Shown: positions 2,108-19,596 of the stretch, piece after piece
How positions within the stretch are numbered: the first letter of the stretch is position 1
Layout: each line of letters begins with the position of its first letter
Virus record (IMG/VR): IMGVR_UViG_3300040815_000684
Location: 1-20,902 of that record
Source of the DNA: a virus
Length of the DNA: 20,902 nt
Direction: 5' to 3' (one strand)
Made by a program: the position numbers and the translations under genes
Notes under the pieces: model-generated
Databases searched by the model: none
What the model saw: the letters and a program-made list of their open reading frames with translations, nothing else
Told to the model about the DNA's origin: nothing

Positions 2108-4084
2108 ATGCCCGTAAAAATTGATAAGAAGAAGGACAAACTGCTAGCAGAATACGCAGTTGGAATGTTAAAAGAATTCTACCTAAATGATTATGAAAAA
2201 AGTCCCCAAGAGGGATTCGCAAGGGCATCAACCGCATGGAGTAATGGAGACGAAGAACTCGCACAACGTCTATACGACTATGTGTCTAATAAGTGGTTTA
2301 TGTTTGCGTCTCCTGTATTATCCAATGCACCCAACGGTCACGACATAAAAAGTAAAGGAATGCCTATCTCGTGTTTCCTTACCTATGTTCCTGACACTCT
2401 AGAAGGACTTATAGGTCACTCATCTGAACTACGGTGGTTATCCGTTTATGGTGGTGGTGTCGGTGGACACTGGTCTGACGTAAGAACTGTATCAGACATT
2501 GCACCTGGCCCGATTCCTTTTCTACATACTGTTGACGCAGATATGATTGCATATCGTCAAGGTAAAACAAGAAAAGGTTCTTATGCTGCTTATATGGATA
2601 TCTCTCATCCAGATATTGTAGAGTTTATGAATATGCGTATCCCTACAGGTGACGTACAACGTAAAGCATTAAACCTACATAACGCAATCAATATTACTGA
2701 CGAGTTTATGGAAGCAGTAATCAATAATACAGACTTTGATTTGCGTGACCCAAAGAACAACGAAGTAAAAGAAACTGTTAATGCACGTAAACTCTGGGAA
2801 CGTCTTCTAGAGATTCGTTTCCGTACAGGTGAACCTTATCTAAACTTTATTGATACAGCAAACAACGCTTTACCTCAACCACTAAAAGACAAAGGATTAA
2901 AGATTCACGGTAGTAATCTATGTAATGAGATTCACCTACCAACCTCTGACGATAGAACTGCGGTATGTTGTTTATCGTCACTTAATCTAGAATACTATGA
3001 CGAGTGGAAGGACACTACTATTGTTCGTGACATCATTCGTATGCTTGATAATGTGCTTCAATACTTTATTGAGAATGCACCTGATACTATTACTAGAGCA
3101 AAGTATTCCGCAGAAAGAGAAAGAAGTTTAGGTCTTGGTGCAATGGGATTCCATTCTCTATTACAGAAACACGGAGTTGCGTGGGAGAGTGAAGCTGCAA
3201 GGGATATCAACAGAACTGTATTCCAACATATCAATGAAGAAGCACATAAAGAAACTGAATTACTTGCAGAGGAACGAGGAGAGTATCCTGACGGTATTGG
3301 TTCTGGTAAAAGAAACTCACACCTTCTTGCGATTGCTCCTAATGCCTCGTCTGGTGTAATTCTATCAACCAGTCCTTCTATTGAACCATTGAAAGCGAAT
3401 GCATATACTCATAGAACACGTGCAGGAAGTTTCTTGGTAAAAAATAGATATTTAACTGAGTTACTAAACGAAAAAGATATAAATAATGATTCGACTTGGA
3501 CTTCAATCATTACGAATAAAGGTTCTGTTCAACACCTTCCTGAACTAACTGAAGGTGAGAAAGCAATCTTTAAGACTGCGGATGAACTTGACCAAGACTG
3601 GGTAATTACTCACGCTTCAGAGCGTCAAGAGTTTATTTGTCAAGGACAGAGTGTTAACCTGTTCTTCCCAGCTGGTTCTGAGAAGTCTTATGTAAACAAA
3701 GTGCATTTGAATGCGTGGAAGAAAGGACTCAAGGGTTTATACTATCTACGTACAGAAGCAAAACAAAGAGCAGAGAACGTATCGGAAAAAGTAGAACGTG
3801 TCGCCCTTCAAGGTGATACTCGTACTATCATCTACGGTAAAGTAGATTGTCCGTTTTGTTCTATGGCAAAGGAAGAACTCAAGTTAAGAGGTATTCCATA
3901 TGATTATATTAACCTGAAAGATATCGGAAAAACTGCTGCCGAGGTTACAGGTCGTAAAGTCAAAACAGTCCCTCAAATCTATATTGAAGGTGAATATGTT
4001 GGGGGTTATGACGAACTTATGGTATATTTAAATCAACCAGTAGAAACAAACGAAGGCGATGAATGTCGTGCTTGTGAGGGATAA
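2108..4084 (+). CDS. nrdA: Class I ribonucleotide reductase alpha subunit with inserted glutaredoxin domain
   Basis: Catalytic subunit that reduces ribonucleotides to deoxyribonucleotides for phage DNA synthesis. Residues seen: C89 (PISCFL) and C287/C288 (AVCCLSSLNL) for the substrate-reducing pair, N270-L-C272-N-E274 (catalytic Asn, thiyl-radical Cys and Glu), PNASSG at 411-416, and the radical-relay Tyr pair at 545-546 (GLYYLRT). There is no N-terminal ATP-cone; the protein starts directly in the R1 fold. After about residue 570 follows a full glutaredoxin domain (IIYGKVDCPFCSMAKEEL, active site C581-P-F-C584; TVPQIYIEGEYVGGYDEL at 620-637). Then comes an extreme C-terminus ECRACEG whose C653/C656 pair looks like the normal R1 swinging-tail cysteines. 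So the glutaredoxin lies between body and tail. ATG 2108 is chosen as the first start before conserved sequence. nrdB follows after 2 bp. Confidence 0.95.
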   Translation: MPVKIDKKKDKLLAEYAVGMLKEFYLNDYEKSPQEGFARASTAWSNGDEELAQRLYDYVSNKWFMFASPVLSNAPNGHDIKSKGMPISCFLTYVPDTLEGLIGHSSELRWLSVYGGGVGGHWSDVRTVSDIAPGPIPFLHTVDADMIAYRQGKTRKGSYAAYMDISHPDIVEFMNMRIPTGDVQRKALNLHNAINITDEFMEAVINNTDFDLRDPKNNEVKETVNARKLWERLLEIRFRTGEPYLNFIDTANNALPQPLKDKGLKIHGSNLCNEIHLPTSDDRTAVCCLSSLNLEYYDEWKDTTIVRDIIRMLDNVLQYFIENAPDTITRAKYSAERERSLGLGAMGFHSLLQKHGVAWESEAARDINRTVFQHINEEAHKETELLAEERGEYPDGIGSGKRNSHLLAIAPNASSGVILSTSPSIEPLKANAYTHRTRAGSFLVKNRYLTELLNEKDINNDSTWTSIITNKGSVQHLPELTEGEKAIFKTADELDQDWVITHASERQEFICQGQSVNLFFPAGSEKSYVNKVHLNAWKKGLKGLYYLRTEAKQRAENVSEKVERVALQGDTRTIIYGKVDCPFCSMAKEELKLRGIPYDYINLKDIGKTAAEVTGRKVKTVPQIYIEGEYVGGYDELMVYLNQPVETNEGDECRACEG

Positions 4085-5186: not shown

Positions 5187-5591
5187 ATGTGGATATATGA
5201 AGGTAAAGAGTTTGACCCTGAAGAAGAGTTCTTGGAACAATATCAAGGATTTGTTTATTGTCTTACAGAGTTAAGTACAGGTAAAAAGTATATTGGTAAG
5301 AAGTTTTTCTGGAAACCTAAGATACTTCCTGTTACGAAAACAAGAAAAAGACGCAAAAGAACAAGGGTTCAATCTGACTGGCGGAAGTACTATGGGTCGT
5401 CAGAAATGGTAAAAACACTCGTAGAAGGGGGTCAGGACTTCCAGAGAGACGTTCTAAGACTATGTAGGACAAAAGGTGAGTGTTCATACTACGAGGCAAA
5501 ACTACAATTTGAATATGACGTTTTGTTGAGTGACGAGTATTATAATGAGTTTATAGGATGTAAGATTCATGCCAAGCATATCAAAAGATAA
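5187..5591 (+). CDS. GIY-YIG nuclease, SegE-like (134 aa)
   Basis: Predicted GIY-YIG family endonuclease of the type found as free-standing genes in T4-like phages. Visible motifs: GFVY at 21-24 (variant GIY), KKYIGKK at 33-39 (YIG), a basic insertion KTRKRRKRTR at 51-60, DWRKYYGSS at 64-72 carrying the conserved Arg, and YYEAKLQFEYDVL at 101-113 carrying the metal-binding Glu (E103). The protein is only the catalytic domain, with no separate DNA-binding domain apart from the basic patch. It lies just downstream of nrdB, a region that T4-like phages often carry homing endonucleases in. It may be mobile or a domesticated DNA-processing nuclease. The 3' end overlaps the next gene by 23 bp. ATG 5187 has no clear Shine-Dalgarno sequence. 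Confidence 0.75.
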   Translation: MWIYEGKEFDPEEEFLEQYQGFVYCLTELSTGKKYIGKKFFWKPKILPVTKTRKRRKRTRVQSDWRKYYGSSEMVKTLVEGGQDFQRDVLRLCRTKGECSYYEAKLQFEYDVLLSDEYYNEFIGCKIHAKHIKR

Positions 5592-6852
5592 TTATTGGGG
5601 CACATTAAAGAATAACGGTGTATTGAATCGTCAAGTTATAGGTGGACGATACGGTTTTGTTTATGACGGTCAAGAGTATAAAGACTTTTATTTGTTGACC
5701 AATGAAATGAAATGGCGACTGCGTGATGCAGGTGCAAAGAAAGGTGATTTGATTACCATTTCTATTATGAAGGTCAACCTACAACACATTGCTTCTTTGA
5801 TTGCGTGTGCAGAACTAGGATTAAGAATATTCATATTAGATAGTCCTGCGACCAAAGAATCCCTTCCTTTTACTAAACTTGCACTTCACGGCCCAAGTGA
5901 TTACTATATCTACAGTTCAAAAGAAGATACCACTAAAATATATAACGGTCTTCATGACGAAATGATGAAACGATACGGTGGTGTTGGTATTGATTGTGAA
6001 TCACCTGCGTCTTCTGACAATGACTTTAATCACGAATATCATGATTGTGACTTTCCTAAAGTATTACCTACCGACCCACTATTAGTTAGTTCTACTTCTG
6101 GAACAACAGGAAAATCAAAACCAATCACATTCTCACACCAAGAAGTAATGGGTATATCAATTCGTAATATTCATACATTCTGGTTTGTGCAGAATTCAAA
6201 AGTAGTTCATTCCAGAAATCTACACCACGCATCAGCAATGTTAACTCACCTATTACCTGCATTGTTTTTTTGTTATGGTCATAGTTCATTTGCAATTGGT
6301 CACGACTTGAGTGCAGAAGAAGACGTTGACCGATTGATAGGATTAAGAGACTTATTAGAAAACCCTCCTTCTAATATAATGATACCCAACAAATCAGAAC
6401 TCTATGACTTTCTTGAAACCTTTGGTGGTAGATTCAAAAGAACAGTCAATATCAATATGTGTGGATTTGCATTAGACGAAGAGTTTGTAGAACTTGCAAA
6501 AGAATATAATGTTCTATTTCAATCACATTACGGTAGTATTGATACTGCAATTCCATTACTGGTAAATTATGTTGGAGAACACGATAAGATTATTCCGAAT
6601 AGTCTGGGTATATTACCAGACGATTTCTACAAGACTACTTTAGAGAATGGTCGTATGAAAGTAGAACACGAGTGGTGGGACGAACCACGATATATGGAAG
6701 ACGAACTAGAACTGATAAACGGACAATATATAATACATCCGAAACCAAGAACTGAGATAGAAATACCAGAGGGATTTGATATTACACCTTTCTATCAAGA
6801 TACTAAACTTAATTATGAACAACTAAGAGGACATTTGAGTGTTACATCGTAA
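5569..6852 (+). CDS. ANL-superfamily (AMP-binding) adenylate-forming protein, N-domain only
   Basis: Member of the acyl-CoA synthetase/NRPS adenylation/luciferase superfamily, which activates carboxylates as acyl-AMP. The signature phosphate-binding loop is intact: SSTSGTTGKSKP at 174-185, followed by ITFSHQEV. Upstream, KKGDLITISIMKVN.QHIASLIACAELGLRIFILD (58-91) matches the Rossmann-like half of the N-domain. HYGSID at 320-325 corresponds to the A5 motif, with Asp where Glu is usual. At 427 aa it ends near the hinge: no TGD motif, hinge Asp or C-terminal lid with the catalytic Lys is visible. It could still adenylate weakly, or be a binding or transfer module. The ATG overlaps the nuclease gene by 23 bp, with TAGGA at 5554-5558 as ribosome site. 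A degenerate tandem paralogue follows at once. Rare in phages; the substrate is unknown. Confidence 0.8.
   Translation: MPSISKDNYWGTLKNNGVLNRQVIGGRYGFVYDGQEYKDFYLLTNEMKWRLRDAGAKKGDLITISIMKVNLQHIASLIACAELGLRIFILDSPATKESLPFTKLALHGPSDYYIYSSKEDTTKIYNGLHDEMMKRYGGVGIDCESPASSDNDFNHEYHDCDFPKVLPTDPLLVSSTSGTTGKSKPITFSHQEVMGISIRNIHTFWFVQNSKVVHSRNLHHASAMLTHLLPALFFCYGHSSFAIGHDLSAEEDVDRLIGLRDLLENPPSNIMIPNKSELYDFLETFGGRFKRTVNINMCGFALDEEFVELAKEYNVLFQSHYGSIDTAIPLLVNYVGEHDKIIPNSLGILPDDFYKTTLENGRMKVEHEWWDEPRYMEDELELINGQYIIHPKPRTEIEIPEGFDITPFYQDTKLNYEQLRGHLSVTS
6825..6831 (+). promoter_or_regulatory. Ribosome-binding site supporting a GTG start at 6839
   Basis: AAGAGGA ends 7 bases before GTG 6839. The later in-frame ATG at 6884 has no comparable site, and the segment between them aligns with the paralogue upstream. 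Confidence 0.5.
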
Positions 6853-7798
6853 TCTTATAAAAGACGACATTAAAATTAATAATATGAACAAAGAAGAGTT
6901 TTGTGTTATGATTAATCAGTTTAAACACTTACTCATACAAAACGGTGTTAGAAAAGGAGAAGTAACTAGTGTTCAAATACCTAAAGTAGACGCAACCAAC
7001 CTTGCAGCTGTATTTGCGTGTATAGAATTAGGATTACCTTTGTTCATTATTCCTGATGCAGTTTTTGATGTTAAAACTAAAGCAAACGAAAGGATTAATA
7101 ATCTAACCAACGAAGAATGGTCTGGAGACAACTGGCCAGTTAATCGTTTAACTACAATAGACCAAGAATTCATAAAGAATAGTAAAAGTGAGAAAATGGT
7201 GGGTGGTTGGATTGGTCTCTGGATGATGATACAAAAACAAGTATCAAAGAACATTGACGCACGAGTAGTACCTGAAGAAAAGGATAACATTGAAATCTGG
7301 GGAGTCAATGAAAACGATACTGCATTTATTAATAGTGACGGAGAACTATTGAGACTTATGGGTTTCTTATCTCCTGAAGGTGAACCATTTAAGTTTATAT
7401 CTCATAAAGAAACAATCTATAATGCAAGTCGTATGAATTATTATTATGAAAATAAGAATGTTGGACTTGGGACTGCATATCATCATTTTAATTCATTTGA
7501 ACGAAGTATCTTACCTGCACTTATGACTGCGAAGTCTGTACAAGGTGTTATGATTATTCCACCGTCAATCTATGGTGAGGAAATGTCAACCATAGTTGCA
7601 AAAAGAAATATTCCAAAACTAAAAACAGTAGACGTAGTTTATGGAATACTAGACGATTCATTAGAATTACTGTTTAACATTATGTCCGAAAACAAAGAAG
7701 ACTTTGACAATACTCTAGAGATTGTCCCTCGTGAAGGACAAAAATATGATAGTAGACACATTGAATGGGAACAAAAATTTAATGTAAAATTTCTCTAA
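6839..7798 (+). CDS. Degenerate, truncated ANL-superfamily paralogue (tandem duplicate)
   Basis: By eye this protein aligns along its length with the preceding AMP-binding protein. FCVMINQFKHLLIQNGVRKGEV (21-42) pairs with FYLLTNEMKWRLRDAGAKKGDL; LAAVFACIELGLPLFII (55-71) with IASLIACAELGLRIFIL; FISHKETIYNASRM (186-199) with FSHQEVMGISIRNI; ILPALMTAKSVQGVMII with LLPALFFCYGHSSFAIG. The phosphate-binding loop has decayed: residues 172-186 read RLMGFLSPEGEPFKF where the paralogue has the STSGTTGKSK loop. The gene stops at NVKFL (315-319), exactly before the position of the paralogue's A5 motif (NVLFQSHYGSID). It is therefore probably catalytically dead. An intact open frame of 319 codons suggests retained function, for example as a partner or regulatory subunit. 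GTG start 6839, overlapping the previous stop by 14 bp. Confidence 0.7.
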   Translation: MLHRNLIKDDIKINNMNKEEFCVMINQFKHLLIQNGVRKGEVTSVQIPKVDATNLAAVFACIELGLPLFIIPDAVFDVKTKANERINNLTNEEWSGDNWPVNRLTTIDQEFIKNSKSEKMVGGWIGLWMMIQKQVSKNIDARVVPEEKDNIEIWGVNENDTAFINSDGELLRLMGFLSPEGEPFKFISHKETIYNASRMNYYYENKNVGLGTAYHHFNSFERSILPALMTAKSVQGVMIIPPSIYGEEMSTIVAKRNIPKLKTVDVVYGILDDSLELLFNIMSENKEDFDNTLEIVPREGQKYDSRHIEWEQKFNVKFL

Positions 7799-7865: not shown

Positions 7866-8072
7866 ATGAGTAACTTAAATAACGATTTTATTTGCGACAG
7901 AGTAATTTCTGACGCAATTGACATTGTAGACGAAATGTCTGATATTAAGGTTAAACAAGTTCTTCACTTAAACTTTGGTATTAATATTCCAATGTGGAAA
8001 CTTAACCTTGACGAAGCAAGAGATTTCTTGATTTCTAGGATTTCAGAACAATTACTTGAGGAGTCTGCATAA
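7866..8072 (+). CDS. Small phage hypothetical (68 aa)
   Basis: The function is not recognised. The product begins MSNLNNDFICDRVISDAIDI and is a small acidic, mainly helical soluble protein. ATG 7866 is chosen because AGGAG lies 6 bases upstream (7855-7859). A GTG in the same frame at 7836 would lie only 2 bases after the -10 box, before the transcript starts. It is the first gene after a very strong promoter, the typical place for small early host-takeover proteins in T4-like phages; that role is inference. Its stop overlaps the next ATG (TAATG). Confidence 0.7.
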   Translation: MSNLNNDFICDRVISDAIDIVDEMSDIKVKQVLHLNFGINIPMWKLNLDEARDFLISRISEQLLEESA

Positions 8073-8353
8073 TGTTAACATTTAATAAAGAAGTTGGTTA
8101 TCCAACAAACCAAGAGAAAGGTGTTTTTGTTGAGTATCTACTCTCATTCTATAGTGATAAACCTGAGTGGGACGCAGTTTACCCTGAAATTGGTATGGGT
8201 TCTCTTGACGCAGTAGAGTGTATGGAAATGTACTTAGGAGGACACTACGAGAGTGTTTCGACCAAAGGTGAACATTTATGGGGTGGTGGAGACTCCATTG
8301 ACAGAGAAAATGTTAGAGATATCTTTTTGTCATTTTCTGCAAAAAGTGCTTGA
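8072..8353 (+). CDS. Small phage hypothetical (93 aa)
   Basis: The function is not recognised. It is an acidic protein (MLTFNKEVGYPTNQEKGVFV...) with a gly-rich loop LWGGGDSIDRENVRDIFLSF near the C-terminus. No membrane segment and no cysteine cluster; only one Cys. It is coupled to the preceding small gene (TAATG). Its TGA stop is part of the TTGACA -35 box of the next promoter, so it is the last gene that fits before the next transcription start. Homology searches would be needed to place it. Confidence 0.7.
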   Translation: MLTFNKEVGYPTNQEKGVFVEYLLSFYSDKPEWDAVYPEIGMGSLDAVECMEMYLGGHYESVSTKGEHLWGGGDSIDRENVRDIFLSFSAKSA

Positions 8354-9766: not shown

Positions 9767-10105
9767 ATGAACTATTTAACACTATTGAAATCAAAACTAC
9801 ACGGTGTTGTATGCACCGAAACAGATTTAGACTACGAAGGTTCTATTCTGATTGACGAAGACTTGATGGATAAAGTAGGAATCCGCATATACGAACAAGT
9901 AGACGTTTACAATAAAACCAACGGTAACAGACATACAACCTATGCATTACCTTTACCCAGAGGTTCAAATAAAATATCGGTTAATGGTGCAGGTGCTCAT
10001 TTAACTAATGTCGGAGACGAACTCATAATTTGTGCATATATAAGAAAAGACTATACGTATGCAACAGGTCACGAACCTAAAATTTACATTGCAGAGAAAA
10101 CTTAA
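9767..10105 (+). CDS. panD: Aspartate 1-decarboxylase (pyruvoyl-dependent)
   Basis: Converts L-aspartate to beta-alanine, the first committed step toward pantothenate and CoA. The zymogen cleaves itself between Gly and Ser to form the pyruvoyl cofactor; that site is intact as YEG25-S26 (LDYEGSILID). Other key residues match E. coli PanD with an offset of one: K10 (SKLHG), R55 (TNGNRHTTYA), T58, Y59, and N73 in ISVNGAGAH. At 112 aa it is slightly shorter than the bacterial enzyme (126), lacking part of the C-terminal tail; no separate maturation factor gene is seen nearby. Start ATG 9767 gives the normal N-terminus. It is the first gene after the hairpin terminator, followed by overlapping small gene, phoH and peptidase. 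A pantothenate gene in a phage is an auxiliary metabolic gene. Confidence 0.92.
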   Translation: MNYLTLLKSKLHGVVCTETDLDYEGSILIDEDLMDKVGIRIYEQVDVYNKTNGNRHTTYALPLPRGSNKISVNGAGAHLTNVGDELIICAYIRKDYTYATGHEPKIYIAEKT

Positions 10106-11021: not shown

Positions 11022-11482
11022 AACTAAGTAAAAATTTTACCCTTGACGAGTTTACTAGGTCAATGACCGCAACTCGTTTAGGTATTGATAACACACCAAA
11101 AGACGAACATCTTGAAGCTGCGAAAGCATTATTTGAGAATGTAGTACAACCTATCAGAGACCACTTTGGTATTACTCGGATTAGTTCTGGATATAGAAGT
11201 CCTGCACTAAACGAAGCAATCGGTGGTTCTACTAGGTCTCAACATAGTAAAGGTCAAGCAGTTGACTTTGAATGTGACGGACAAGATAACCTAGAAGTCG
11301 CAAAGTGGATTAGAGATAATCTAGACTATGACCAAGTAATCTCTGAGTTCTACGTAGAGGGAGACCCTAAGTCTGGTTGGATTCACGTATCTTATGTGAG
11401 TAAAGAAGAGAATCGTAATAGACCTCTGACTGCACAAAGAGTAGACGGTAAAGTACAATATAGTGTTGGTTTACCTGAATGA
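11018..11482 (+). CDS. Peptidase M15-family peptidoglycan hydrolase (candidate endolysin)
   Basis: Zinc peptidase of the M15 (M15_3) family, cutting peptidoglycan peptide cross-links. The N-terminus KLSKNFTLDEFTRSMTA (2-18) is the family start; RISSGYRSPALNEAIGG (54-70) leads to the metal site SQHSKGQAVDFE with H76 and D83, and GWIHVSY contains H123. No signal peptide, so export would require the holin. The 154-aa length is that of single-domain phage endolysins, without a separate wall-binding domain. The C-terminus has an additional short basic extension (NRNRPLTAQRVDGKVQYSVGL). It sits between phoH and a glycosyltransferase with 4-bp overlaps, and 9 kb from the GTA-type holin. A virion-associated role cannot be excluded. 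Confidence 0.85.
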   Translation: MKLSKNFTLDEFTRSMTATRLGIDNTPKDEHLEAAKALFENVVQPIRDHFGITRISSGYRSPALNEAIGGSTRSQHSKGQAVDFECDGQDNLEVAKWIRDNLDYDQVISEFYVEGDPKSGWIHVSYVSKEENRNRPLTAQRVDGKVQYSVGLPE

Positions 11483-12309
11483 ATCTGATTTATCAGTATA
11501 TGATTACCAATGAGGAGACTGAGAAACGAAAAAAAGTTCCTGAGTATCCTCAAGGTAGTCGTTCTGAACTCTATCGTAAAACAGGTGACCTATCTGCGGA
11601 ATCATTTAGAATCTATGCAGAAAAACTAGATTGTGTTCATCACTATTCTACTAGACAAGTATTTACCGCAGGTAAAACAGGTTCAACAGTATTACTCTTT
11701 GAATGTTTAAGAGTAATCTATGACCCATTGTATGATGACTTTGATAAGGTTGCATTCATTGATAGTGATATTATTTGTAATACCGAAGAGAATATCTTTG
11801 ACCAAACCAACGGATATGATGTAACAGGTGTTTTTGAATCTGAGATTCGTACAGAAAAGGACGGTGGATATAATACGTGGGATTATTCTGATAAGATTAA
11901 GAAACAACTAACTGAGAAATACGAACGCAATAACATTCCACTTGTTCCTACTGAATCTCCTTATAGACCTTCTTGTATTACTACATTCAATACTGGTGTA
12001 TTGGTATGGACTAAGGAAGCACGACTCAAAGCACGAGAAGAGTTTGACGATTGGTATGATTATATGCAAGACGGAGATAAACACGGTGACCCATTTTGGT
12101 TGAACAATGACCAACCCTTTATATCTGGACAATTAGTTAAACACGGATTCAATATACAAAGTATTGACCAAACGTGGAATGATACTCCTACTCACTATAA
12201 AGATGAACATGGATACAATCAAAACTTTCTTCACTATACTGGTGGAGGAAACAAAGTAGTAATGTTAGAAGACTATAACCAAGGTAAATTTAAATATTTA
12301 AAGCCTTGA
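11479..12309 (+). CDS. GT-A fold glycosyltransferase (GT8-like)
   Basis: Predicted nucleotide-sugar glycosyltransferase. Evidence: a single catalytic-type domain with the metal-binding DxD at FIDSDIIC (D95, D97), preceded by FDKVAFI; a family-like acceptor/donor section TFNTGVLVWTKEA (about 168-180); NNDQPFISGQLVKHGF (about 209-224), similar to the DQ..LN motif; and HYTGGGNK near the C-terminus (His that binds the metal in GT8 enzymes). No membrane segment. It overlaps the peptidase gene by 4 bp. Its TGA stop lies inside the -35 box (TTGACA) of the next promoter. It probably acts with the other glycosyltransferases 3' of it. Acceptor unknown. Confidence 0.75.
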   Translation: MNLIYQYMITNEETEKRKKVPEYPQGSRSELYRKTGDLSAESFRIYAEKLDCVHHYSTRQVFTAGKTGSTVLLFECLRVIYDPLYDDFDKVAFIDSDIICNTEENIFDQTNGYDVTGVFESEIRTEKDGGYNTWDYSDKIKKQLTEKYERNNIPLVPTESPYRPSCITTFNTGVLVWTKEARLKAREEFDDWYDYMQDGDKHGDPFWLNNDQPFISGQLVKHGFNIQSIDQTWNDTPTHYKDEHGYNQNFLHYTGGGNKVVMLEDYNQGKFKYLKP

Positions 12310-12334
12310 CATTTGTTGTCCTTATTGTTATAAT
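12306..12334 (+). promoter_or_regulatory. Near-perfect sigma70 promoter (early promoter copy 3) with palindromic -10
   Basis: TTGACA (12306-12311), 17-base spacer, TATAAT (12329-12334), 12/12 consensus. The -10 lies in an 8-bp perfect inverted repeat: TCCTTATT (12319-12326), GTTAT loop, AATAAGGA (12332-12339). The upstream gene's TGA (12307-12309) is within the -35. The transcript would begin near 12341. Confidence 0.85.
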
Positions 12335-12346
12335 AAGGATATGAAA

Positions 12347-12351
12347 AAGGA
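12347..12351 (+). promoter_or_regulatory. Ribosome-binding site deciding GTG start 12362
   Basis: AAGGA ends 10 bases before GTG 12362. The upstream in-frame ATG (12341) would be at the transcription start itself, with no leader. GTG also gives a promoter-to-start distance (27) close to copies 1 and 2 (32). Confidence 0.6.
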
Positions 12352-12361
12352 AAATAATAAA

Positions 12362-12943
12362 GTGTTAGACCAGTATCATAAAGTAATACTGACAGACGCA
12401 GACGGTGTTCTCCTGAACTGGGGATATGCGTTTGACGTATGGATGACCGAGAAAGGTTATACCGCAAAGAATAAGTTAAAATATAATATCGGAGAAATCT
12501 ACGGTATTACACAAACAGAATCTAAAAAACTAGTCAGAGAGTTCAACGAATCTGCACATATGGGATTTGTTCCTCCTCTAAGAGACGCAATCCAGTATGT
12601 TAAGAAGTTGCACGAGGAACACGGATATGTGTTTCACCTGATTACTTCAATGAGTAAAGACATAAATGCACAAAAACTAAGAACAATGAATATTAAGAAG
12701 TTGTTCGGTAAGACTGCATTTACTAAGTTTATCTACCTTGATACAGGTGAGGACAAGGACGAAGTTCTTGCACCATACGAAGGAACAGGATATACTTGGG
12801 TTGAAGACAAAGTAGAAAATGCACACGCAGGTGCAAACTTTGGATTAGATTCAATTGTAATGGAACACGGTTACAATATGGATTGTAAAGACTTCCCTTT
12901 AATGAAAGGTTGGAAGGACGTGTATGAATACCTAGTCGGTTAA
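12362..12943 (+). CDS. HAD-superfamily phosphatase (nucleotidase-like)
   Basis: Hydrolase of the HAD superfamily. With the GTG start the protein is 193 aa. Motif I is ILTDADGVLLNW, with D12 as nucleophile and D14 as acid; motif II is HLITSMSKD (T95/S96); motif IV is YTWVEDKVENAHAG (D149). These positions and the small alpha-helical cap (about 20-80) resemble phage 5'(3')-deoxyribonucleotidase or HAD proteins in T4-like genomes. The substrate could be a nucleotide, a sugar phosphate or a phosphorylated intermediate of the neighbouring glycan genes. An ATG seven codons upstream (12341) exists but coincides with the expected transcription start. It is the first gene after the third early promoter. 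Confidence 0.75.
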   Translation: MLDQYHKVILTDADGVLLNWGYAFDVWMTEKGYTAKNKLKYNIGEIYGITQTESKKLVREFNESAHMGFVPPLRDAIQYVKKLHEEHGYVFHLITSMSKDINAQKLRTMNIKKLFGKTAFTKFIYLDTGEDKDEVLAPYEGTGYTWVEDKVENAHAGANFGLDSIVMEHGYNMDCKDFPLMKGWKDVYEYLVG

Positions 12944-12961
12944 AATTCCCTATATACTTGT

Positions 12962-14482
12962 ATGAAAAGATATGTAGGATATTCCGAATATTTCCACGAT
13001 GCTGCTATAGCTATCGTCAACGAAGACGGTACAATTCCGTGGGCAAGTCAATCAGAACGATATAGTGGAAGTAAAAACGACCCTCTAATACCTCCTGAAA
13101 TGTGGGAGTTTGTTAATGAAGACGACCACGTTACTTTCTACGAAGACATAGATATGCGTAGAGAACAGATGGGTGGATATCGTACTCACGGCCCGTGGTC
13201 AATGCACGGATTTTCGAGTGATAAAGTAGAATCACATACTCCAATGCGTAATGCATTGACGTTTGACACTTTCAATACTCACCACGAGAGTCATTGTGCA
13301 GGTGCATTCTTTACTAGACCTTGGAAGTCTAAAGAAGATACTGTTATGGTATCGGTAGACGGTTCTGGTGAACTAGAGTCTATAGTTATCAAAGACCACA
13401 ACTTCAAAACAATTAAACGCATTACTTGGCCACAATCCTTGGGTTGTCTCTATGGATTGGTTGTTAGGTCATCTGGAATGATGCCACTCAGAGACGAATA
13501 TATTATTATGGGTCTTGCGTGTTACGGTGAAGTTAATGAATATCTTTATAAACTTCTTCATAATTGTTATTATTGGTTTGAGAGTGAACAAGGTAAAAGA
13601 GTTAAACAACTAGTAGACTTTGAAAGAATTGCTTATGCAGAAAGTGGATTGTCAGATAAGTATGCTCAATACTCTGACCGAATCAATGATTTTGTAAAAA
13701 ACCATATACATCGACCTGAAGACGCAGCCGCAACCGTACAAAAGTTCTTTGAAGTAGAAGTAATGAAGATTATGAAAGAAGCACGTAAGTATGGTTCTAA
13801 GTTAGTTTACTCTGGTGGTTGTGCTCAAAATGTTGTTGCAAACACTTTAATTAGTGAACTGTTTGATGAAATGCATATTGCAATTGCACCGAGTGACGCA
13901 GGTAATTCTCTTGGTTGTGCTGCTTATACGTGGCATAAAGAAACAGGTGGAACACATTTAGATTGGTCTCCATATCTGGGTCATAATATTGACCGAGAAA
14001 TTAATCCAAAAGAAGTTGCAAAGTATCTTACCGAAAACAAAGTATGTGGTGTTGCAAACGGTAAAGCAGAGTTTGGCCCTCGTGCGTTAGGTAATCGTTC
14101 TTTGATTGCAGACGTGAGATATGATGTAAAGGATACCGTAAACGATATCAAACGTAGACATAGATTCAGACCTTTTGCACCTGCAATCTTATCTGAATAT
14201 GCAGACCAATATTTTGAAGGGCCGATGAATCAATATATGCAGTTTACCGCAATCGCAAAACACGACTATAAGTCCGTGACCCACGTAGACGGAACTGCAA
14301 GAGTTCAGTTAGTTGAACCTGATTGTAAGTCTGCAATACGTCAAATACTTGAAGAGTATTATGAACTTACAGGAGTTCCAATGCTACTAAATACATCATT
14401 GAATATTCGTAATAGACCTATGGTAAATACTATAGAAGATGCGAATGAGTGGGAAACTAAATACAAAGTTAAAGTATTTTAA
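12962..14482 (+). CDS. Carbamoyltransferase, NodU/CmcH/TobZ family
   Basis: O-carbamoyltransferase that uses carbamoyl phosphate and ATP to put a carbamoyl group on a hydroxyl of a sugar or small molecule. The N-terminal Kae1-like domain shows GYSEYFHDAAIAIV (6-19), HHESHCAGAFF (107-117; metal-binding His) and SVDGSGE (131-137); LVYSGGCAQNVVANTLI and APSDAGNSLGCAAYTWH follow. The C-terminal YrdC-like domain carries the family's GKAEFGPRALGNRSLIADVR block and RHRFRPFAPAIL. At 506 aa it is slightly shorter than bacterial members (about 550-600) but both domains appear complete. No Shine-Dalgarno sequence in front of ATG 12962; 18 bp after the HAD gene. Context with glycosyltransferases suggests a sugar acceptor; base or nucleotide modification is an alternative known for related phage enzymes. 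Confidence 0.9.
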   Translation: MKRYVGYSEYFHDAAIAIVNEDGTIPWASQSERYSGSKNDPLIPPEMWEFVNEDDHVTFYEDIDMRREQMGGYRTHGPWSMHGFSSDKVESHTPMRNALTFDTFNTHHESHCAGAFFTRPWKSKEDTVMVSVDGSGELESIVIKDHNFKTIKRITWPQSLGCLYGLVVRSSGMMPLRDEYIIMGLACYGEVNEYLYKLLHNCYYWFESEQGKRVKQLVDFERIAYAESGLSDKYAQYSDRINDFVKNHIHRPEDAAATVQKFFEVEVMKIMKEARKYGSKLVYSGGCAQNVVANTLISELFDEMHIAIAPSDAGNSLGCAAYTWHKETGGTHLDWSPYLGHNIDREINPKEVAKYLTENKVCGVANGKAEFGPRALGNRSLIADVRYDVKDTVNDIKRRHRFRPFAPAILSEYADQYFEGPMNQYMQFTAIAKHDYKSVTHVDGTARVQLVEPDCKSAIRQILEEYYELTGVPMLLNTSLNIRNRPMVNTIEDANEWETKYKVKVF

Positions 14483-14494
14483 TGGAGAAATGAT

Positions 14495-14884
14495 ATGGTA
14501 AAAGAAACCGTAGATACACCTGTAGGACAAGCGACAGTTGATTTAGAAAAATACACTGAGTTAGTTCTTAAGGTAGACGAAGCACAAGATAAAATTAAAG
14601 AGATGGAAAAACTCTCGAAGGAACTACAAGTTGTAACAGCAGCTGCAAAACCAGTACCCAAAGGTTTCTGGTCATTGTTCAGAGACGAAAATGATATCAA
14701 TGAAAAATCAATTATTGGATTTGCATCGTTTCTTATGATGGTTGCGTTTGGTATCTTTGATTTGATTACTGCAATGGACGGTACACCTCTAGAGATATCT
14801 GATACAATCTATACGTCTTTTGTTGTTGTGACATTAGGTTCATTTGGTATTGCTGAAGCAGGAAAAGCATTCTCAGGCAAATAA
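14495..14884 (+). CDS. Two-TM membrane protein with N-terminal coiled coil (possible second holin)
   Basis: The function is not recognised. The 129-aa protein has a charged N-terminal coiled coil (KYTELVLKVDEAQDKIKEME, 19-38), a linker, then two membrane segments: about 72-93 (SIIGFASFLMMVAFGIFDLI) and 103-122 (DTIYTSFVVVTLGSFGIAEA). The predicted hairpin topology and small size fit a holin-like or phage membrane protein. The GTA-type holin upstream also has a charged helix before two TM segments, so the two proteins may be related in architecture, but not visibly in sequence. GGAGA at 14484-14488 is a good ribosome site for ATG 14495. The next gene's ATG directly follows the stop. Confidence 0.65.
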   Translation: MVKETVDTPVGQATVDLEKYTELVLKVDEAQDKIKEMEKLSKELQVVTAAAKPVPKGFWSLFRDENDINEKSIIGFASFLMMVAFGIFDLITAMDGTPLEISDTIYTSFVVVTLGSFGIAEAGKAFSGK

Positions 14885-15685
14885 ATGGAAAAGGTTAGGT
14901 GGAGAGGCACTTGGGGAGTCGGAGACTTTATGAATGCCCTCAATACTTGTCATAACTATTGTTTTGATAACAACACAAAAGTAAATCTGGAAATGCACTG
15001 GGAACACGATGAAGATTATCTTCATCACCCAGAAGACCCAGAAACAATTATAGAACGTATGACGTGGATGCATAATCAGTATCACCGTCAAGAAGATGTA
15101 ACGGTCACTCACGTTTATAACTCAGATTTATTTCCAAAGGGAAATGTAAATCCTCAAAAGAACAAAGACCGATTCTATTTTGATTCAAAAGCATTTAAAC
15201 CTCATAGCGCTCCACCAAACGATTGGATATTTAAACCTGAATCGTTTGTACCCAAGAAAAAGAAGATAGTTATCTGGACACCGCACTATAATAGTGAACC
15301 ACCAAGAAAGTGGAAAAGGTTCTTGACAATTGATGATTGGTCTGATATAATCAGCTTACTGCGCTGGGAAGGTTGGATACTAGTAGAATTAACCTACAGA
15401 ACTCCTATCAGAGATGCATTTAAACAGATACAGGAATGTGATTTTATTTTCTGTTATGATGGTATGTGGCATTATATTGCAAGAAACTTTAGTAAACCAA
15501 TGTTTATTCCATCTTGGGAAGGTGTAACTGATTATAATACTCCTCAAGCAATAAGAAAACCAAGTAGACATCAAGTACTTGATTTCATAGCTGACGGTGC
15601 AGAAGAGTTTAAACCTAATCTAACAGAAATGAAGGATAAAGCAAAGGACTATATAGATATGTTAAAGAGTAGATATCATGACTAG
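14885..15685 (+). CDS. GT9/GT-B-like glycosyltransferase-type protein
   Basis: Similar in plan to ADP-heptose/GT9-like proteins. The N-terminal strand-loop KVRWRGTWGVGDFMNAL (3-19) resembles the R..G.GD....P motif of GT9. The C-terminal domain carries KKIVIWTPHYN (126-136) and CDFIFCYDGMWHYIARNFSKPMFI (about 190-213), the equivalent of AD..I..DSG..H.A..l..P...lf, with a Met-Trp instead of the usual Gly-Pro. The segment between is rich in Trp, His and Asp. It would be a soluble GT-B protein, 266 aa, shorter than heptosyltransferases (about 320-350), so the N-terminal domain is reduced. ATG follows the upstream stop without gap; the stop overlaps a very small frame. Family match moderate; enzymatic activity not certain. 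Confidence 0.6.
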   Translation: MEKVRWRGTWGVGDFMNALNTCHNYCFDNNTKVNLEMHWEHDEDYLHHPEDPETIIERMTWMHNQYHRQEDVTVTHVYNSDLFPKGNVNPQKNKDRFYFDSKAFKPHSAPPNDWIFKPESFVPKKKKIVIWTPHYNSEPPRKWKRFLTIDDWSDIISLLRWEGWILVELTYRTPIRDAFKQIQECDFIFCYDGMWHYIARNFSKPMFIPSWEGVTDYNTPQAIRKPSRHQVLDFIADGAEEFKPNLTEMKDKAKDYIDMLKSRYHD

Positions 15686-15758
15686 AAAGTTATTAGTTTC
15701 AGTATGGACTGATGGAAGAAAAACAGTAAAAGTCTATGCGGACGTAAAAGAGAAATAA
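15678..15758 (+). CDS. Possible 26-aa microprotein bridging two genes
   Basis: Open frame MTRKLLVSVWTDGRKTVKVY followed by ADVKEK. Its ATG overlaps the end of the GT9-like gene (ATGACTAG) and its stop directly precedes the ATG at 15759, filling the only gap between them. It is basic with alternating hydrophobic residues (a possible beta hairpin). The ribosome site is weak (aagagtag). It is plausible as a translational-coupling frame or a real microprotein; chance remains possible. Confidence 0.4.
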   Translation: MTRKLLVSVWTDGRKTVKVYADVKEK

Positions 15759-15962
15759 ATGTATGTTCCTTGGTTCAGTAAACCTGAAAACGAAAAGAAA
15801 ATATTAAGAGCAGTTAATCTATCTCCGAATGAAAGTATTATGGAGAAATTACCTGAAGTACACCCTATGAAACAGGTTGCATACGCATCTGTCATACAGG
15901 TACTTGTGTTTGGTTTTATGATATTTATGTTTTGGTTGATTAGTCAATTTGTGAGTCATTAA
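15759..15962 (+). CDS. Small single-TM membrane protein (67 aa)
   Basis: The function is not recognised. It has a soluble N-terminal part (MYVPWFSKPENEKKILRAVN; about 1-40) and one strong C-terminal transmembrane segment (42-64, SVIQVLVFGFMIFMFWLISQ). It is a tail-anchored type or N-in/C-out protein. Stop TAA overlaps the ATG of the radical SAM gene (TAATG). It could anchor or assist a neighbouring enzyme at the inner membrane, but nothing in the sequence shows this. Confidence 0.6.
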   Translation: MYVPWFSKPENEKKILRAVNLSPNESIMEKLPEVHPMKQVAYASVIQVLVFGFMIFMFWLISQFVSH

Positions 15963-16924
15963 TGAAGATTGATAGAGCAGTTATTGAGATTAATGGAGGA
16001 TGTAATTTCTCCTGTAGTATGTGTCCTCAAGATATGCGAACAGGAGGACGTGATAAACGATTCCTCAAGAAAATGAAACTAGACGAGTTTGAAAAAAATG
16101 TCTCTGATTGTGCCAAACACGGATTAAGAGTAGTCAACCTAGAGGGTAGTGGTGAACCTACTCTGAACAGAAACCTACCTGAATACATTAAGATTGTAAA
16201 GAAGTATGGGGCGAAATGCTTTATGTTCTCTAATGGATTCCGTATGGGTGGACAATTTATGAAAGATTGTGTTGATGCAGGACTAGACTTTTATCGTTTC
16301 TCCTTTATTGGATATGACCCTGCAAAATATGACGAATGGATGTATAACACTATTGGTAGTAACTTTAATCATATTGTCAATAACATATCAGAAATGAAAA
16401 AATATGTTGACGAATCTGGTAGTGATTGTGTTGTTGCAACCTATCACTTAATTACCGATAACGATAATCTAGACTATGAGTTAGAAAAATATCAAGAACT
16501 AGTAAACAATCTAGGAGTCAAGACCGAGATATGGAAAATGCATAACTGGTCTGGTGTTTATGACCCCAAACAAAATGTTCGTAGTGGTGAAGAAAAGACT
16601 TGTGGTAGACCATTCTCTCCTGACGTAGTTATTCGTGCAGGAGGACTTGATAAAAAGACTGGTGCGGTTGCACCTTGTTGTCAAGTATTAGGACAAGACG
16701 AGAATGCAGTTCTAGGTCATACCAGTGAAAATACTATTGAAGAAATCTGGAACGGCCCAGAATATAGTAAACTACGTGAAGACCACAAGAACAAAACATA
16801 TCCTGACTACTGCAAAACTTGTGACTTTCTACTTGACGACCCTGAAGTATTAGTTTGGACTAATCACGAAAGAGACTTATATAAAATGCACGGAACTGAA
16901 TTTGACCTTGACGATTACAGATAA
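15962..16924 (+). CDS. Radical SAM enzyme with SPASM-type C-terminus
   Basis: S-adenosylmethionine radical enzyme. The cluster-binding CxxxCxxC is C14-NFS-C18-SM-C21 (NGGCNFSCSMCP), and the downstream LEGSGEPTLN (60-69) is the GGE-like SAM-binding motif. The C-terminus has further cysteines: C214 (TCGRPFSP), C239/C240 (APCCQVLG) and C284/C287 (YCKTCDF), typical of a SPASM/twitch auxiliary cluster. The sequence NTIEEIWNGPEYSKLREDH (257-275) is also SPASM-like. Such enzymes modify peptides, sugars or cofactors; their substrate cannot be inferred from the sequence. It sits among glycosyltransferases, with 1 bp overlap upstream. No leader peptide gene (RiPP-type precursor) was identified beside it; the 26-aa and 67-aa frames upstream are not obvious precursors. 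The 320-aa length is normal. Confidence 0.88.
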   Translation: MKIDRAVIEINGGCNFSCSMCPQDMRTGGRDKRFLKKMKLDEFEKNVSDCAKHGLRVVNLEGSGEPTLNRNLPEYIKIVKKYGAKCFMFSNGFRMGGQFMKDCVDAGLDFYRFSFIGYDPAKYDEWMYNTIGSNFNHIVNNISEMKKYVDESGSDCVVATYHLITDNDNLDYELEKYQELVNNLGVKTEIWKMHNWSGVYDPKQNVRSGEEKTCGRPFSPDVVIRAGGLDKKTGAVAPCCQVLGQDENAVLGHTSENTIEEIWNGPEYSKLREDHKNKTYPDYCKTCDFLLDDPEVLVWTNHERDLYKMHGTEFDLDDYR

Positions 16925-16931
16925 TATATGG

Positions 16932-17516
16932 ATGATACAGATACCTGATAGTAAGGTATCTCAACATTATGCAAAACAGGCAATACAAAGTTGGAAATCT
17001 CACGGTTTTCAAGTAAATCTATTTGATGCAGTCACACCTGAGACTCTACATCTATATGACGATATACAGCTTGACCAGTATCACGGTAAACGTGATTTCA
17101 CTGATACTGAAATGGGTTGTTGGTATAGTCACTATCTGTTATGGGAGAAATGTGTTGAAGAACGAACGCCCATAACAATTATAGAACACGATACCGAATG
17201 TCTTACTTCTGATATGCCTATTATCGCACCATACTTTTCAATCTGTAATTTTCAGAATGATGCAGAGTTTCATAACTATTGTGATAGATTTGAAGGACAT
17301 CCTTATTGGTGGCATTACAAGTTATGTCCTATTACTTCTGGATATTATATTGAACCAGAACAGGCAGAAGACTTGTTATTAGAATGTGTGACTGAAAGAC
17401 ATACAAGATATGTTGATGATATAATGTTTGATAAGTTAAATAAAGATTTAAATCTAATTGCGGATTACTGTAGACCTATATATGATACGAAGGTAGGAGG
17501 AACAGTTGACCACTAG
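16932..17516 (+). CDS. GT25-like glycosyltransferase
   Basis: Resembles the GT25 (LPS/LOS beta-galactosyltransferase-like) family. Shown by MIQIPDSKVSQHYAKQAIQS at the N-terminus (the I.L......R....) and by FTDTEMGCWYSHYLLWEKCVEE (56-77), which matches the family block L...E.GC..SH...w......; ITIIEHDTEC (81-90) holds the acidic motif, here EHD rather than EDD. The C-terminal half contains TSGYYIEPEQAEDLL. ATG 16932 is taken as start; the frame is open upstream to TTG 16902, which would overlap the radical SAM gene by 23 bp, but there is no ribosome site for either. At 194 aa it is shorter than many members. The end overlaps the next gene. Confidence 0.65.
   Translation: MIQIPDSKVSQHYAKQAIQSWKSHGFQVNLFDAVTPETLHLYDDIQLDQYHGKRDFTDTEMGCWYSHYLLWEKCVEERTPITIIEHDTECLTSDMPIIAPYFSICNFQNDAEFHNYCDRFEGHPYWWHYKLCPITSGYYIEPEQAEDLLLECVTERHTRYVDDIMFDKLNKDLNLIADYCRPIYDTKVGGTVDH
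17495..17500 (+). promoter_or_regulatory. Strong Shine-Dalgarno for a TTG start at 17506
   Basis: AGGAGG, the best ribosome site in the window, ends five bases before TTG 17506 and 17 before the ATG at 17518. Normal spacing therefore favours the TTG. Confidence 0.65.
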
Positions 17517-18300
17517 AATGATATTTCAAGTGTCGGTAGGTAAACCGTCCGAATTATATGAACACTGTATTGAGAGTGTCGCACATTATTGTGAGAAATA
17601 TAATATTGAACATATCGTCTTAACCCAACCTAAATTAAGAATCAAACCAGATATTTTTTCTTCTGGACGTAGTGAAGAATCCTATATGAAGTATGGTGGA
17701 TATCTTCCTATCTACGAAAAAGAAAACGCATTTAATTATCTGGACGACTATGACCAGATTGCAATTGTTGATGCAGACATTTATATCCGACCTGACGCAC
17801 CTAATATCTTTGAGGACTTTGGAACAGAACACGCTTTTGGTGCTGTATGTGAACGTGAGATGGATATTCACCCTTGGTATGTAAACAAGATTATAAACTA
17901 TTCAAGAATGCAATATGAAACCTTACATCATCATAGTAAAATAGATTTTAAACCTGATAGATATGGATACGAATTCTTTAATATGGGATTGATTCTTTTA
18001 AACAGTAAGTTATTCAAACCTTATCTAAAAGGACAAGACCCACATAGTTTTCTGAATCGTATGGAATTCAAAGACTTTGTGGATGGTATTGGTGCTTATA
18101 AATGGAGTACTGACCAGACACTACTAAATTTCTTTATAAAGAAATATAAAATTCCAACCAAACATATGGGAGGTCAATGGAACGGATTGTATAGTGCGGT
18201 AAACAACATAAAAGAGTGTTATTTTGTTCATTTCTTTTTAAAGGACAAATTACCAGAAAACGGTGAAAATGTCGAAGAGTTAATGAAACAAATTGTATAA
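17506..18300 (+). CDS. GT8-like glycosyltransferase (TTG start)
   Basis: Nucleotide-sugar transferase of the GT-A type. IAIVDADIYIRPDAPNIFEDF (86-106) has the DxD (D89, D91), followed by a family-type loop with hydrophobic residues; EFFNMGLILLNSKLF (about 156-170) matches the NxG.....N motif; STDQTLLNFFIKKY (about 206-219) matches the DQ..LN motif; and CYFVHFFLKDKLP (about 243-255) contains the C-terminal His region. These are the four landmarks of GT8. The protein is 264 aa, soluble. The strong AGGAGG and its distance favour TTG 17506, giving MTTRMIFQ. It is the last gene before the late promoter at 18296, whose octamer overlaps its stop codon. Confidence 0.8.
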   Translation: MTTRMIFQVSVGKPSELYEHCIESVAHYCEKYNIEHIVLTQPKLRIKPDIFSSGRSEESYMKYGGYLPIYEKENAFNYLDDYDQIAIVDADIYIRPDAPNIFEDFGTEHAFGAVCEREMDIHPWYVNKIINYSRMQYETLHHHSKIDFKPDRYGYEFFNMGLILLNSKLFKPYLKGQDPHSFLNRMEFKDFVDGIGAYKWSTDQTLLNFFIKKYKIPTKHMGGQWNGLYSAVNNIKECYFVHFFLKDKLPENGENVEELMKQIV

Positions 18301-18303
18301 ATA
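18296..18303 (+). promoter_or_regulatory. T4-type late promoter TATAAATA
   Basis: Perfect TATAAATA overlapping the TAA stop of the glycosyltransferase gene. Predicted start near 18310 leaves about 30 nt of leader to ATG 18340, with AGGAGA at 18328-18333. In the leader, a 10-bp palindrome TAATATATTA (18308-18317) and a hairpin TAGGA/TCCTA (18327-18331, 18335-18339) are visible; the hairpin would cover the ribosome site. Confidence 0.65.
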
Positions 18304-18339
18304 ATACTAATATATTAATAGAGTGATAGGAGAATCCTA

Positions 18340-19038
18340 ATGTTAAACCCCAAAGAGTTTGTGAAGAAAATTCGCAACGATAACCAAGCACTTTTTGAAG
18401 CGTCTAAAATGAACGTCAAAGAGTACTTTGAAAACGACCTACCTGAAGAGGAAATGGTCAATCACTTCATTGGTCGTATGGTCAATGAACGTATGAATAT
18501 GTCTGAAATATCTCAGCAGATTGCAAATGCAGCTGATAATGCAGACCCTAAAGAATTAGAACTTCTTTCTAAACAAGCACATGACGAAGCAAAACACTAT
18601 CGTATGGTTCGAGAAGTAATCGAACATATCAAAGGTGAAGAAGTTGATGTCGCAGCTGCTCTTGAATCAGAAAGAAAAGCAAACACCGCCAAAGGTGCTT
18701 CACTATTAGAAAAGTATGGTGCAGAAAATGATGAAGCAGTTCTCGCTGCCTATCAGTTAGTTGCAGAAGGACGTGCGGAAGCAGTCTGGAATCAGATGGC
18801 AGATACTATTCAAGATGAATTTATTTCTACACGATATCGTGAAATTGCAAAGGACGAAGGTTTCCATAGTGCAATCGGTGGATATTCATTACGTAAAATT
18901 GCAACAGATGAAAAGACACAAAATCGTGTTCTTGACATCATTGGAAAAATGCGTAAAGACTTATTTGAAATCTCGTGTAAAAATACAGTTGAAGCAAAAG
19001 GTTCTAGAGAACTAGTAAACGCTGCTTACGGTTGGTAA
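18340..19038 (+). CDS. Ferritin-like di-iron protein (possible oxygenase/oxidase)
   Basis: Four-helix-bundle non-haem di-iron protein. Ligand pattern: E50 (MVNERM), E83 and H86 (DEAKH), E147 (GRAEAVW), E173 and H176 (DEGFH): the canonical E...ExxH...E...ExxH of ferritin-like oxidases. It is distinct from the R2 subunit in this window, lacking a Tyr after the first ExxH at the R2 spacing. Length 232 aa is typical for single-domain ferritin-like oxygenases. The C-terminus is capped by helical KGSRELVNAAYGW. It could hydroxylate, desaturate or otherwise oxidise a small molecule. It is the first gene of the late-promoter unit, and the amidotransferase begins at the base after its stop (TAAATG), so the proteins are probably made together. 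Storage ferritin is less likely, since the cage-type sequence features are not evident. Confidence 0.82.
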   Translation: MLNPKEFVKKIRNDNQALFEASKMNVKEYFENDLPEEEMVNHFIGRMVNERMNMSEISQQIANAADNADPKELELLSKQAHDEAKHYRMVREVIEHIKGEEVDVAAALESERKANTAKGASLLEKYGAENDEAVLAAYQLVAEGRAEAVWNQMADTIQDEFISTRYREIAKDEGFHSAIGGYSLRKIATDEKTQNRVLDIIGKMRKDLFEISCKNTVEAKGSRELVNAAYGW

Positions 19039-19596
19039 ATGAAAATAGGACTCACTCAACGAGTCCTCACGTACAATAGACAAGTTCATGACTCTTTAGA
19101 ACATAACTGGTATCGGTTATTAAAGAGTCACGAACTCATTCCTATCCCAAATCGTGACGACTTAGATTATAAATCTCTTGCAGAATCCTTAGACCTTCTC
19201 ATCATTACTGGTGGAGGGAATGAGGAAATTCGTATCACTACAGAAATATCTCTGTCAACAGAAATGGTCAAACTAAATAAACCTATTCTTGGTATATGTC
19301 ACGGTGCATTTTTACTTACAGAGATTCTTGGTGGTAAAACAAGAACAGATAAAAACAATCATTTTGATGTTGAACATTTCGTATACAGTAAATACCAACC
19401 ACATTTAGTAAAAGTAAATAGTTTTCATACGATTGCTATTGACAAAATACCACCAGATAGTGTACAATTATGTACAGATGTAAGTGGTGATTGTGAATCT
19501 TGGATTAAAGATAATATTTGTGCAATTGTGTGGCACCCTGAGAGAATGACTACACCCTATATACCTAAAGATATTGTAAAGGCAACAGGATTATGA
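19039..19596 (+). CDS. Class I glutamine amidotransferase-like (C26-type) protein
   Basis: Glutamine amidotransferase or gamma-glutamyl hydrolase fold with a full catalytic triad: C87 in LGICHGAF, H166 and E168 in VWHPERM. LLIITGGGNE (53-62) is the oxyanion strand. The N-terminus KIGLTQRVLTYNRQ..DSLEHNWYRLL (2-28) resembles the subgroup of single-domain GATases found in surface polysaccharide loci, which includes the gamma-glutamyl-CDP-amidate hydrolase (Cj1417-type) of the Campylobacter capsule phosphoramidate pathway; that comparison is from memory. Whether it supplies ammonia or hydrolyses a glutamyl conjugate is open. No synthase partner domain is fused. The preceding ferritin-like gene abuts; the following cupin gene overlaps by 4 bp. 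Length 185 aa fits a free-standing class I domain. Confidence 0.82.
   Translation: MKIGLTQRVLTYNRQVHDSLEHNWYRLLKSHELIPIPNRDDLDYKSLAESLDLLIITGGGNEEIRITTEISLSTEMVKLNKPILGICHGAFLLTEILGGKTRTDKNNHFDVEHFVYSKYQPHLVKVNSFHTIAIDKIPPDSVQLCTDVSGDCESWIKDNICAIVWHPERMTTPYIPKDIVKATGL

Follow-up and report, generated by a model that had tools for sequence, protein, structure and literature searches.

ANL enzymes consist of two domains, one of which, a rotating lid, bears the adenylation lysine. The window analysed here, a virus record of 20,902 bases, carries two neighbouring genes, designated A and B, which had been predicted to encode ANL proteins without the catalytic lid. The question raised by this locus is whether A can still adenylate a substrate, and whether B is a decaying copy of it or a maintained component of the same system.

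Organization of the gene pair

5569-6852, + strand: gene A, ANL (AMP-binding) protein of 427 residues with a shrunken C-terminal lid (PF00501, AlphaFold2, Foldseek)
6825-6831, + strand: AAGAGGA, ribosome-binding-like sequence for gene B, 7 bases before its GTG
6839-7798, + strand: gene B, nucleotide-dead ANL N-domain paralogue of 319 residues with a GTG start (homology to A, fold, dN/dS, clade)

Both reading frames were found where the original prediction had placed them, B preceded by a sequence resembling the ribosome site that had been proposed for it, and the end of A overlaps the start of B by 14 bases. The proposed paralogy also held, since A and B align with E=1e-9 and 21% identity over about 300 residues and B is predicted to fold as an ANL N-domain. 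The possibility was considered that A and B represent a single ancestral gene that was frameshifted, or that B is a recent duplicate being lost. The adjacency of the genes and their short overlap are compatible with this explanation. However, B aligns to the N-domain of A and not to the C-terminus that A is missing; the two cover the same N-domain as paralogues, which argues against a single frame broken by a sequencing error. A recent duplication is opposed by the open frame of B in all lineages, by purifying selection and by the ancient split of the two families (see below). Either version of the explanation is scarcely credible.

Gene A retains the motifs of the ATP site

Gene A matches PF00501 in Pfam (E=1.9e-11). 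Its AlphaFold2 model (pLDDT 83.3, pTM 0.87) has the ANL N-terminal fold, and Foldseek searches of the PDB returned ANL enzymes throughout, including LgrA, EntE and further adenylation domains, among them those of NRPS (best 2.1e-16), in agreement with the ANL identity first assigned to it. The following motifs were located in the protein.

6094-6138, + strand: A3 P-loop TSGTTGKSKPITFSH (aa 176-190), from the motif scan; it fits the published A3 expression (PMC6122825)
6223-6228, + strand: A4 His-His (H219-H220), H220 being aligned with the A4 His of EntE
6529-6543, + strand: A5 YGSID (aa 321-325), with Glu replaced by Asp, from alignment and motif scan
6691-6702, + strand: A7 YMED (aa 375-378), Asp378 invariant; the match to the A7 of EntE was read by eye
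6784-6831, + strand: A10-like motif TPFYQDTKLNYEQLRG (aa 406-421), Lys413 codon at 6805-6807, from L-INS-i alignment, PSSM and the invariant Lys

The intact loop and the YGSID motif ascribed to A are thus both present, the loop as TSGTTGKSK (aa 176-184). Relative to the A5 consensus YGxTE, YGSID retains Tyr-Gly and has Ile for Thr and Asp for Glu, a variant common to all relatives ([YF]G[ST]ID in each of the 20 checked). The ribose-binding Asp of A7 is found as Asp378 in RYMED, again with the A7 match made by eye. The motif scan detected A3, A4, A5, A7 and A10 in all 20 A proteins, although the second Gly of A3 is variable in the family.

A minimal lid with an A10-type lysine

It had been stated that gene A ends before the catalytic Lys. 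This statement could not be sustained, because an A10-type motif containing Lys413 lies at its C-terminus. The segment PFYQDTK(413)LNYEQLRGH matches the ANL A10 motif, and TK[ILV][ND]xEQLRG is retained in 20/20 of the A relatives checked; the block in these proteins reads P-F-x-x-D-T-K-[ILV]-[ND]-x-E-Q-L-R-G, with the Pro substituted in the relative L078. An L-INS-i alignment was made with six ANL proteins of E. coli K-12 (EntE, FadD, Acs, CaiC, EntF and Aas), MenE and FadK being left out of the set as their C-terminus was cut. Lys413 aligned on the A10 Lys (GK[IV]xxxxLR) of the E. coli proteins, following a gap that corresponds to the missing lid. The conserved Pro of the A family lies six residues ahead of the Lys when placed by eye, similar to the A10 expression PK[TN][PA][ST]GKI (PMC6122825). 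Moreover, the AlphaFold2 model of A has short strands followed by a helix (416-426) at this site, comparable to the beta-25 and alpha-P elements of A10 (PMC6122825).

The motif was also evaluated with a PSSM derived solely from the A10 motifs of the six E. coli proteins, with which 498,377 windows in all ORFs were scanned. The C-terminal site was the top-scoring 15-mer in 18 of 19 A proteins. The exception was L078, whose C-terminal site was not selected by the PSSM even though DTKLNYEQLRGH in this protein represents the same block. Versions of A with Asp after the Lys scored 11-14, the highest being 14.2, and scores of at least 16 were reached in just two of the 498,377 windows, both in copies of one 488-residue protein. 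Because most A versions, including that of the virus record analysed here, score a modest 2-7, the case for A10 rests on the consistency of the site across the family and not on single scores.

Alignment, PSSM and motif scan, all of them sequence comparisons, thus place the A10 catalytic Lys in gene A. The body of the lid, roughly 80-100 residues between the hinge and A10, is missing, and the alignment gave no full C-terminal lid domain (AMP-binding_C, PF13193) in A. Of the suggestion that both proteins lack the catalytic lid, the loss of the lid body therefore stands for A and the loss of the lysine does not; as judged by sequence, gene A has a minimal lid rather than none.

The absence of so much of the lid, together with the A5 substitution of Glu by Asp and the variable second Gly of A3, would also suit a protein that is catalytically dead or merely binds nucleotide, in which case both genes would encode pseudoenzymes. 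Against this, the ATP-site motifs and the A10 lysine have been retained while the A family diverged to about 50% identity, and dN/dS of gene A is about 0.2. A dead A protein is considered quite improbable, and catalysis by A is inferred.

Gene B is nucleotide-dead and maintained

No significant match to gene B was found in Pfam or PHROGs. The AlphaFold2 model of B (pLDDT 86.7, pTM 0.88) has the ANL N-terminal fold, with nearest structures in the PDB by Foldseek being TT0168, acyl-ACP synthetase and FadD-type acyl-CoA ligases (TM up to 0.65). The model is not wholly independent of A, as some A rows were present in the alignment; however, two B relatives, those of L012 and L079, have weak PF00501 matches of their own (7e-6 and 1.6e-4). 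An ANL fold is thus predicted for A and B alike when modelled singly, as had been anticipated.

7352-7396, + strand: site of the lost P-loop in gene B (RLMGFLSPEGEPFKF), from alignment and motif scan
7481-7486, + strand: His215-His216 of gene B at the A4 position, His216 being invariant over the aligned B and A rows

A3, A5, A7 and A10 are missing from all 17 B proteins, except that three have YGDMES close to their C-terminal end, and B ends before or at the A5 position. Alignment and motif scan agree with the earlier observation that B has lost the loop and stops ahead of A5. B relatives occur in several clades, none with A3, A7 or A10.

The description of B as decayed was not borne out. Its dN/dS, calculated by the Nei-Gojobori method and counted only for pairs with dS>0.2, was 0.23 against the relative L034 and 0.09-0.21 in the other informative pairs, and no neutral decay was seen in this range of 0.09-0.23. 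In a tree of 40 proteins B formed a single clade (support 92/88, 93% of bootstraps), separate from the A clade (95/98); both lie inside a phage-only group, where long branches were noted. The B frame is open in all lineages. Gene B is therefore under purifying selection and belongs to an ancient clade that is not decaying. Its rate of evolution is well above that of A, the identity between clades being mostly 20-40% for B and 50-75% for A.

Co-occurrence and arrangement in related phages

Gene A was found on 56 viral contigs, and every contig on which B was seen has A as well. The pair was expected in other phages, and B is indeed present in most relatives of A. The exceptions among the matches to B are L111-L113, in which the match is a 460-residue ANL protein itself; in L106 the match is to A. 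A occurs without B in the L028-L031 group, in L023 (a 22-kb fragment) and on contigs too short to tell. The L028-L031 group encodes a third, different ANL paralogue of 472 residues with a degenerate P-loop, TSGYSGDD, on the opposite strand (L028:16332-17750, - strand; also L030 and L031). The pair is carried by a clade of marine T4-like phages. Judged by NrdA, the closest phages with a name are Phage C48C1, at 77.6%, and the Melnitz group of Methylophilales phages, at 67%; the records of C48C1 and Melnitz-1 are assigned to Kyanoviridae.

The gene order is variable. A precedes B with a 14-base overlap in the window, L010 and L078, and B precedes A with an overlap of 10-14 bases in L076, L079, L083 and L018; overlaps in both orders suggest coupled translation. 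In others, such as L014-L017, L020 and L022, an SGNH-like gene separates the two. B lies about 8 kb upstream of A in L007-L009 and L024-L026, where it overlaps a gene resembling fatty-acid desaturases (DesA family in L007, 4.9e-6). In L011 (8048-9508) and L012 (6382-7893; PF13578, 2.1e-4), B has a C-terminal fusion to a domain resembling class I methyltransferases, and the close relatives L013, L018 and L019 have B without this fusion. Furthermore, a PhyH-type oxygenase gene (1.6e-10) lies between B and A, ahead of A, in L011 and L012.

The two genes also differ in their history. Between the window and L034, A is 99% and B 85% identical, and between L020 and L016 the values are 72% and 96%. 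A and B thus recombine independently, since some phages share the sequence of A but not that of B, and a very tight A-B co-specificity is therefore disfavoured. The mirror-tree correlation of A and B (r=0.34) was no stronger than those obtained with NrdB (0.30 and 0.38).

Alternatively, B may have no functional tie to A. It would then be a dead ANL domain recruited as a separate binding protein, for instance to sense an acyl group or another ligand or to inhibit some host enzyme, and would stay near A only since genes of a phage module travel together. The 8-kb separation in several phages, a mirror-tree signal at background level and the faster evolution of B are in keeping with such a role. 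However, the confinement of B to contigs with A and the short overlaps in both gene orders suggest a closer link, and an independent B is regarded as unlikely.

Neither a separate lid gene (PF13193) nor an acyl or peptidyl carrier protein was detected in the records of 15 relatives, one of them of 149 kb. The following genes were noted elsewhere in the window.

2108-4084: NrdA, with a C-terminus that by eye resembles an appended glutaredoxin (CPFCSMAKEEL)
8072-8353: conserved small gene that follows B; every relative aligned has the motif GGGDS[IL]DRE
9767-10105: PanD, aspartate 1-decarboxylase (PF02261, E=8.1e-36)
11479-20261: cluster of sugar/acyl-modification type (GT8-like, carbamoyltransferase, radical SAM-SPASM, GT25, class I GATase, cupin and ferritin-like genes)

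A carrier-like MGSLDAVE in the small ORF at 8072-8353 was considered as a carrier protein and rejected, as it is not conserved in relatives. Because the phage encodes PanD, beta-alanine is one candidate acid for A; several phages that carry A are without the PanD gene group.

Proposed function of the pair

The preferred reading, to which a probability of about 0.55 is given, is that the two ANL paralogues form an ancient pair that has been maintained together, with A adenylating and B in a non-catalytic role as partner or adaptor. A would bind ATP and a carboxylic acid at the A3, A4, A5 and A7 motifs, and the miniature lid, consisting of the A10 segment only, may bring Lys413 to the active site for formation of the acyl-AMP. 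Without the rotating lid body, A would probably not carry out the usual thioesterification of pantetheine. The acyl group might instead be passed to another acceptor, possibly a carrier protein of the host or CoA. B would be a non-catalytic N-domain in which the ANL fold and the acyl-pocket His of A4 are retained. As a partner or adaptor it could serve A, tailoring enzymes (methyltransferase, desaturase, oxygenase, SGNH-like hydrolase) or both. This role is preferred because of the overlaps, the fusion and the neighbouring genes, that is, through guilt by association only. Counting against this reading are the A clade that has no B and carries the 472-residue ANL protein instead (L028-L031), the distance of about 8 kb between B and A in some phages and the mirror-tree correlation, which does not set A-B apart.

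A more speculative extension, put forward tentatively, is a phage-specific heteromeric adenylating system in which a minimal-lid ANL enzyme would be accompanied by an obligate dead ANL subunit, the latter offering a platform on which interchangeable tailoring enzymes (methyltransferase, desaturase, oxygenase) dock. A conserved A10 lysine on a stub would indicate that adenylation requires only a small part of the lid, and the pairing of an enzyme with an ancient dead paralogue would, as far as we know, be unusual in the ANL superfamily. A putative active/inactive pair suggests that the phages may modify some molecule during infection and would point to an acyl-modification pathway carried by marine phages.

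Comparison with known systems

Viral ANL proteins exist but are rare, as was originally supposed. INPHARED phages gave no tblastn match to A or B and no hit to the 460-residue ANL protein, and just seven viral structures in BFVD match A below 1e-3. An EntE query of phage records gave 78 matches, the best listed of which mostly resemble host DNA, judging by names, size and annotation only. No cellular relative of A was confirmed in 84,980 species genomes by a short-peptide-pattern search, which can miss distant ones, and the open-access papers searched contained no description of paired phage ANL proteins or of a dead partner in this superfamily.

The top viral structural match to A is A0A6J5L571 (442 residues, E=1.2e-21), which with A0A6J5L563 and A0A6J7WHT9 represents short AMP-dependent ligases borne, like A, by phages (uncultured Caudovirales); their identity to A is 19% or less. 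The accessions A0A6J5L563, A0A6J5L571 and A0A6J5L770 are nearly consecutive and may stem from a single phage contig that encodes more than one ANL paralogue.

B resembles its nearest folds, acyl-ACP synthetase and the fatty-acyl-CoA ligases, in the N-domain, but unlike them it is without A3, A7 and A10 and stops before or at A5. A shares the N-domain fold, the A3, A4 and A7 motifs, the Tyr-Gly of a variant A5 and the A10-like Lys with the class I adenylate-forming enzymes of the ANL superfamily (EntE, NRPS adenylation domains and FadD). It differs from these in a lid reduced to the A10 segment, in the A5 Asp for Glu and in the lack of a carrier or lid gene in the related records. The 460-residue phage ANL protein of L112 and L113, whose 15.8-kb record yielded no B-like gene, is 23% identical to A in the N-domain and likewise ends in an A10-like sequence, NGVKVDKEMLREFF, but keeps a longer C-terminal part. 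With its C-terminal end VKVDKEMLREFF, the L113 protein is, from its sequence, an apparent intermediate.
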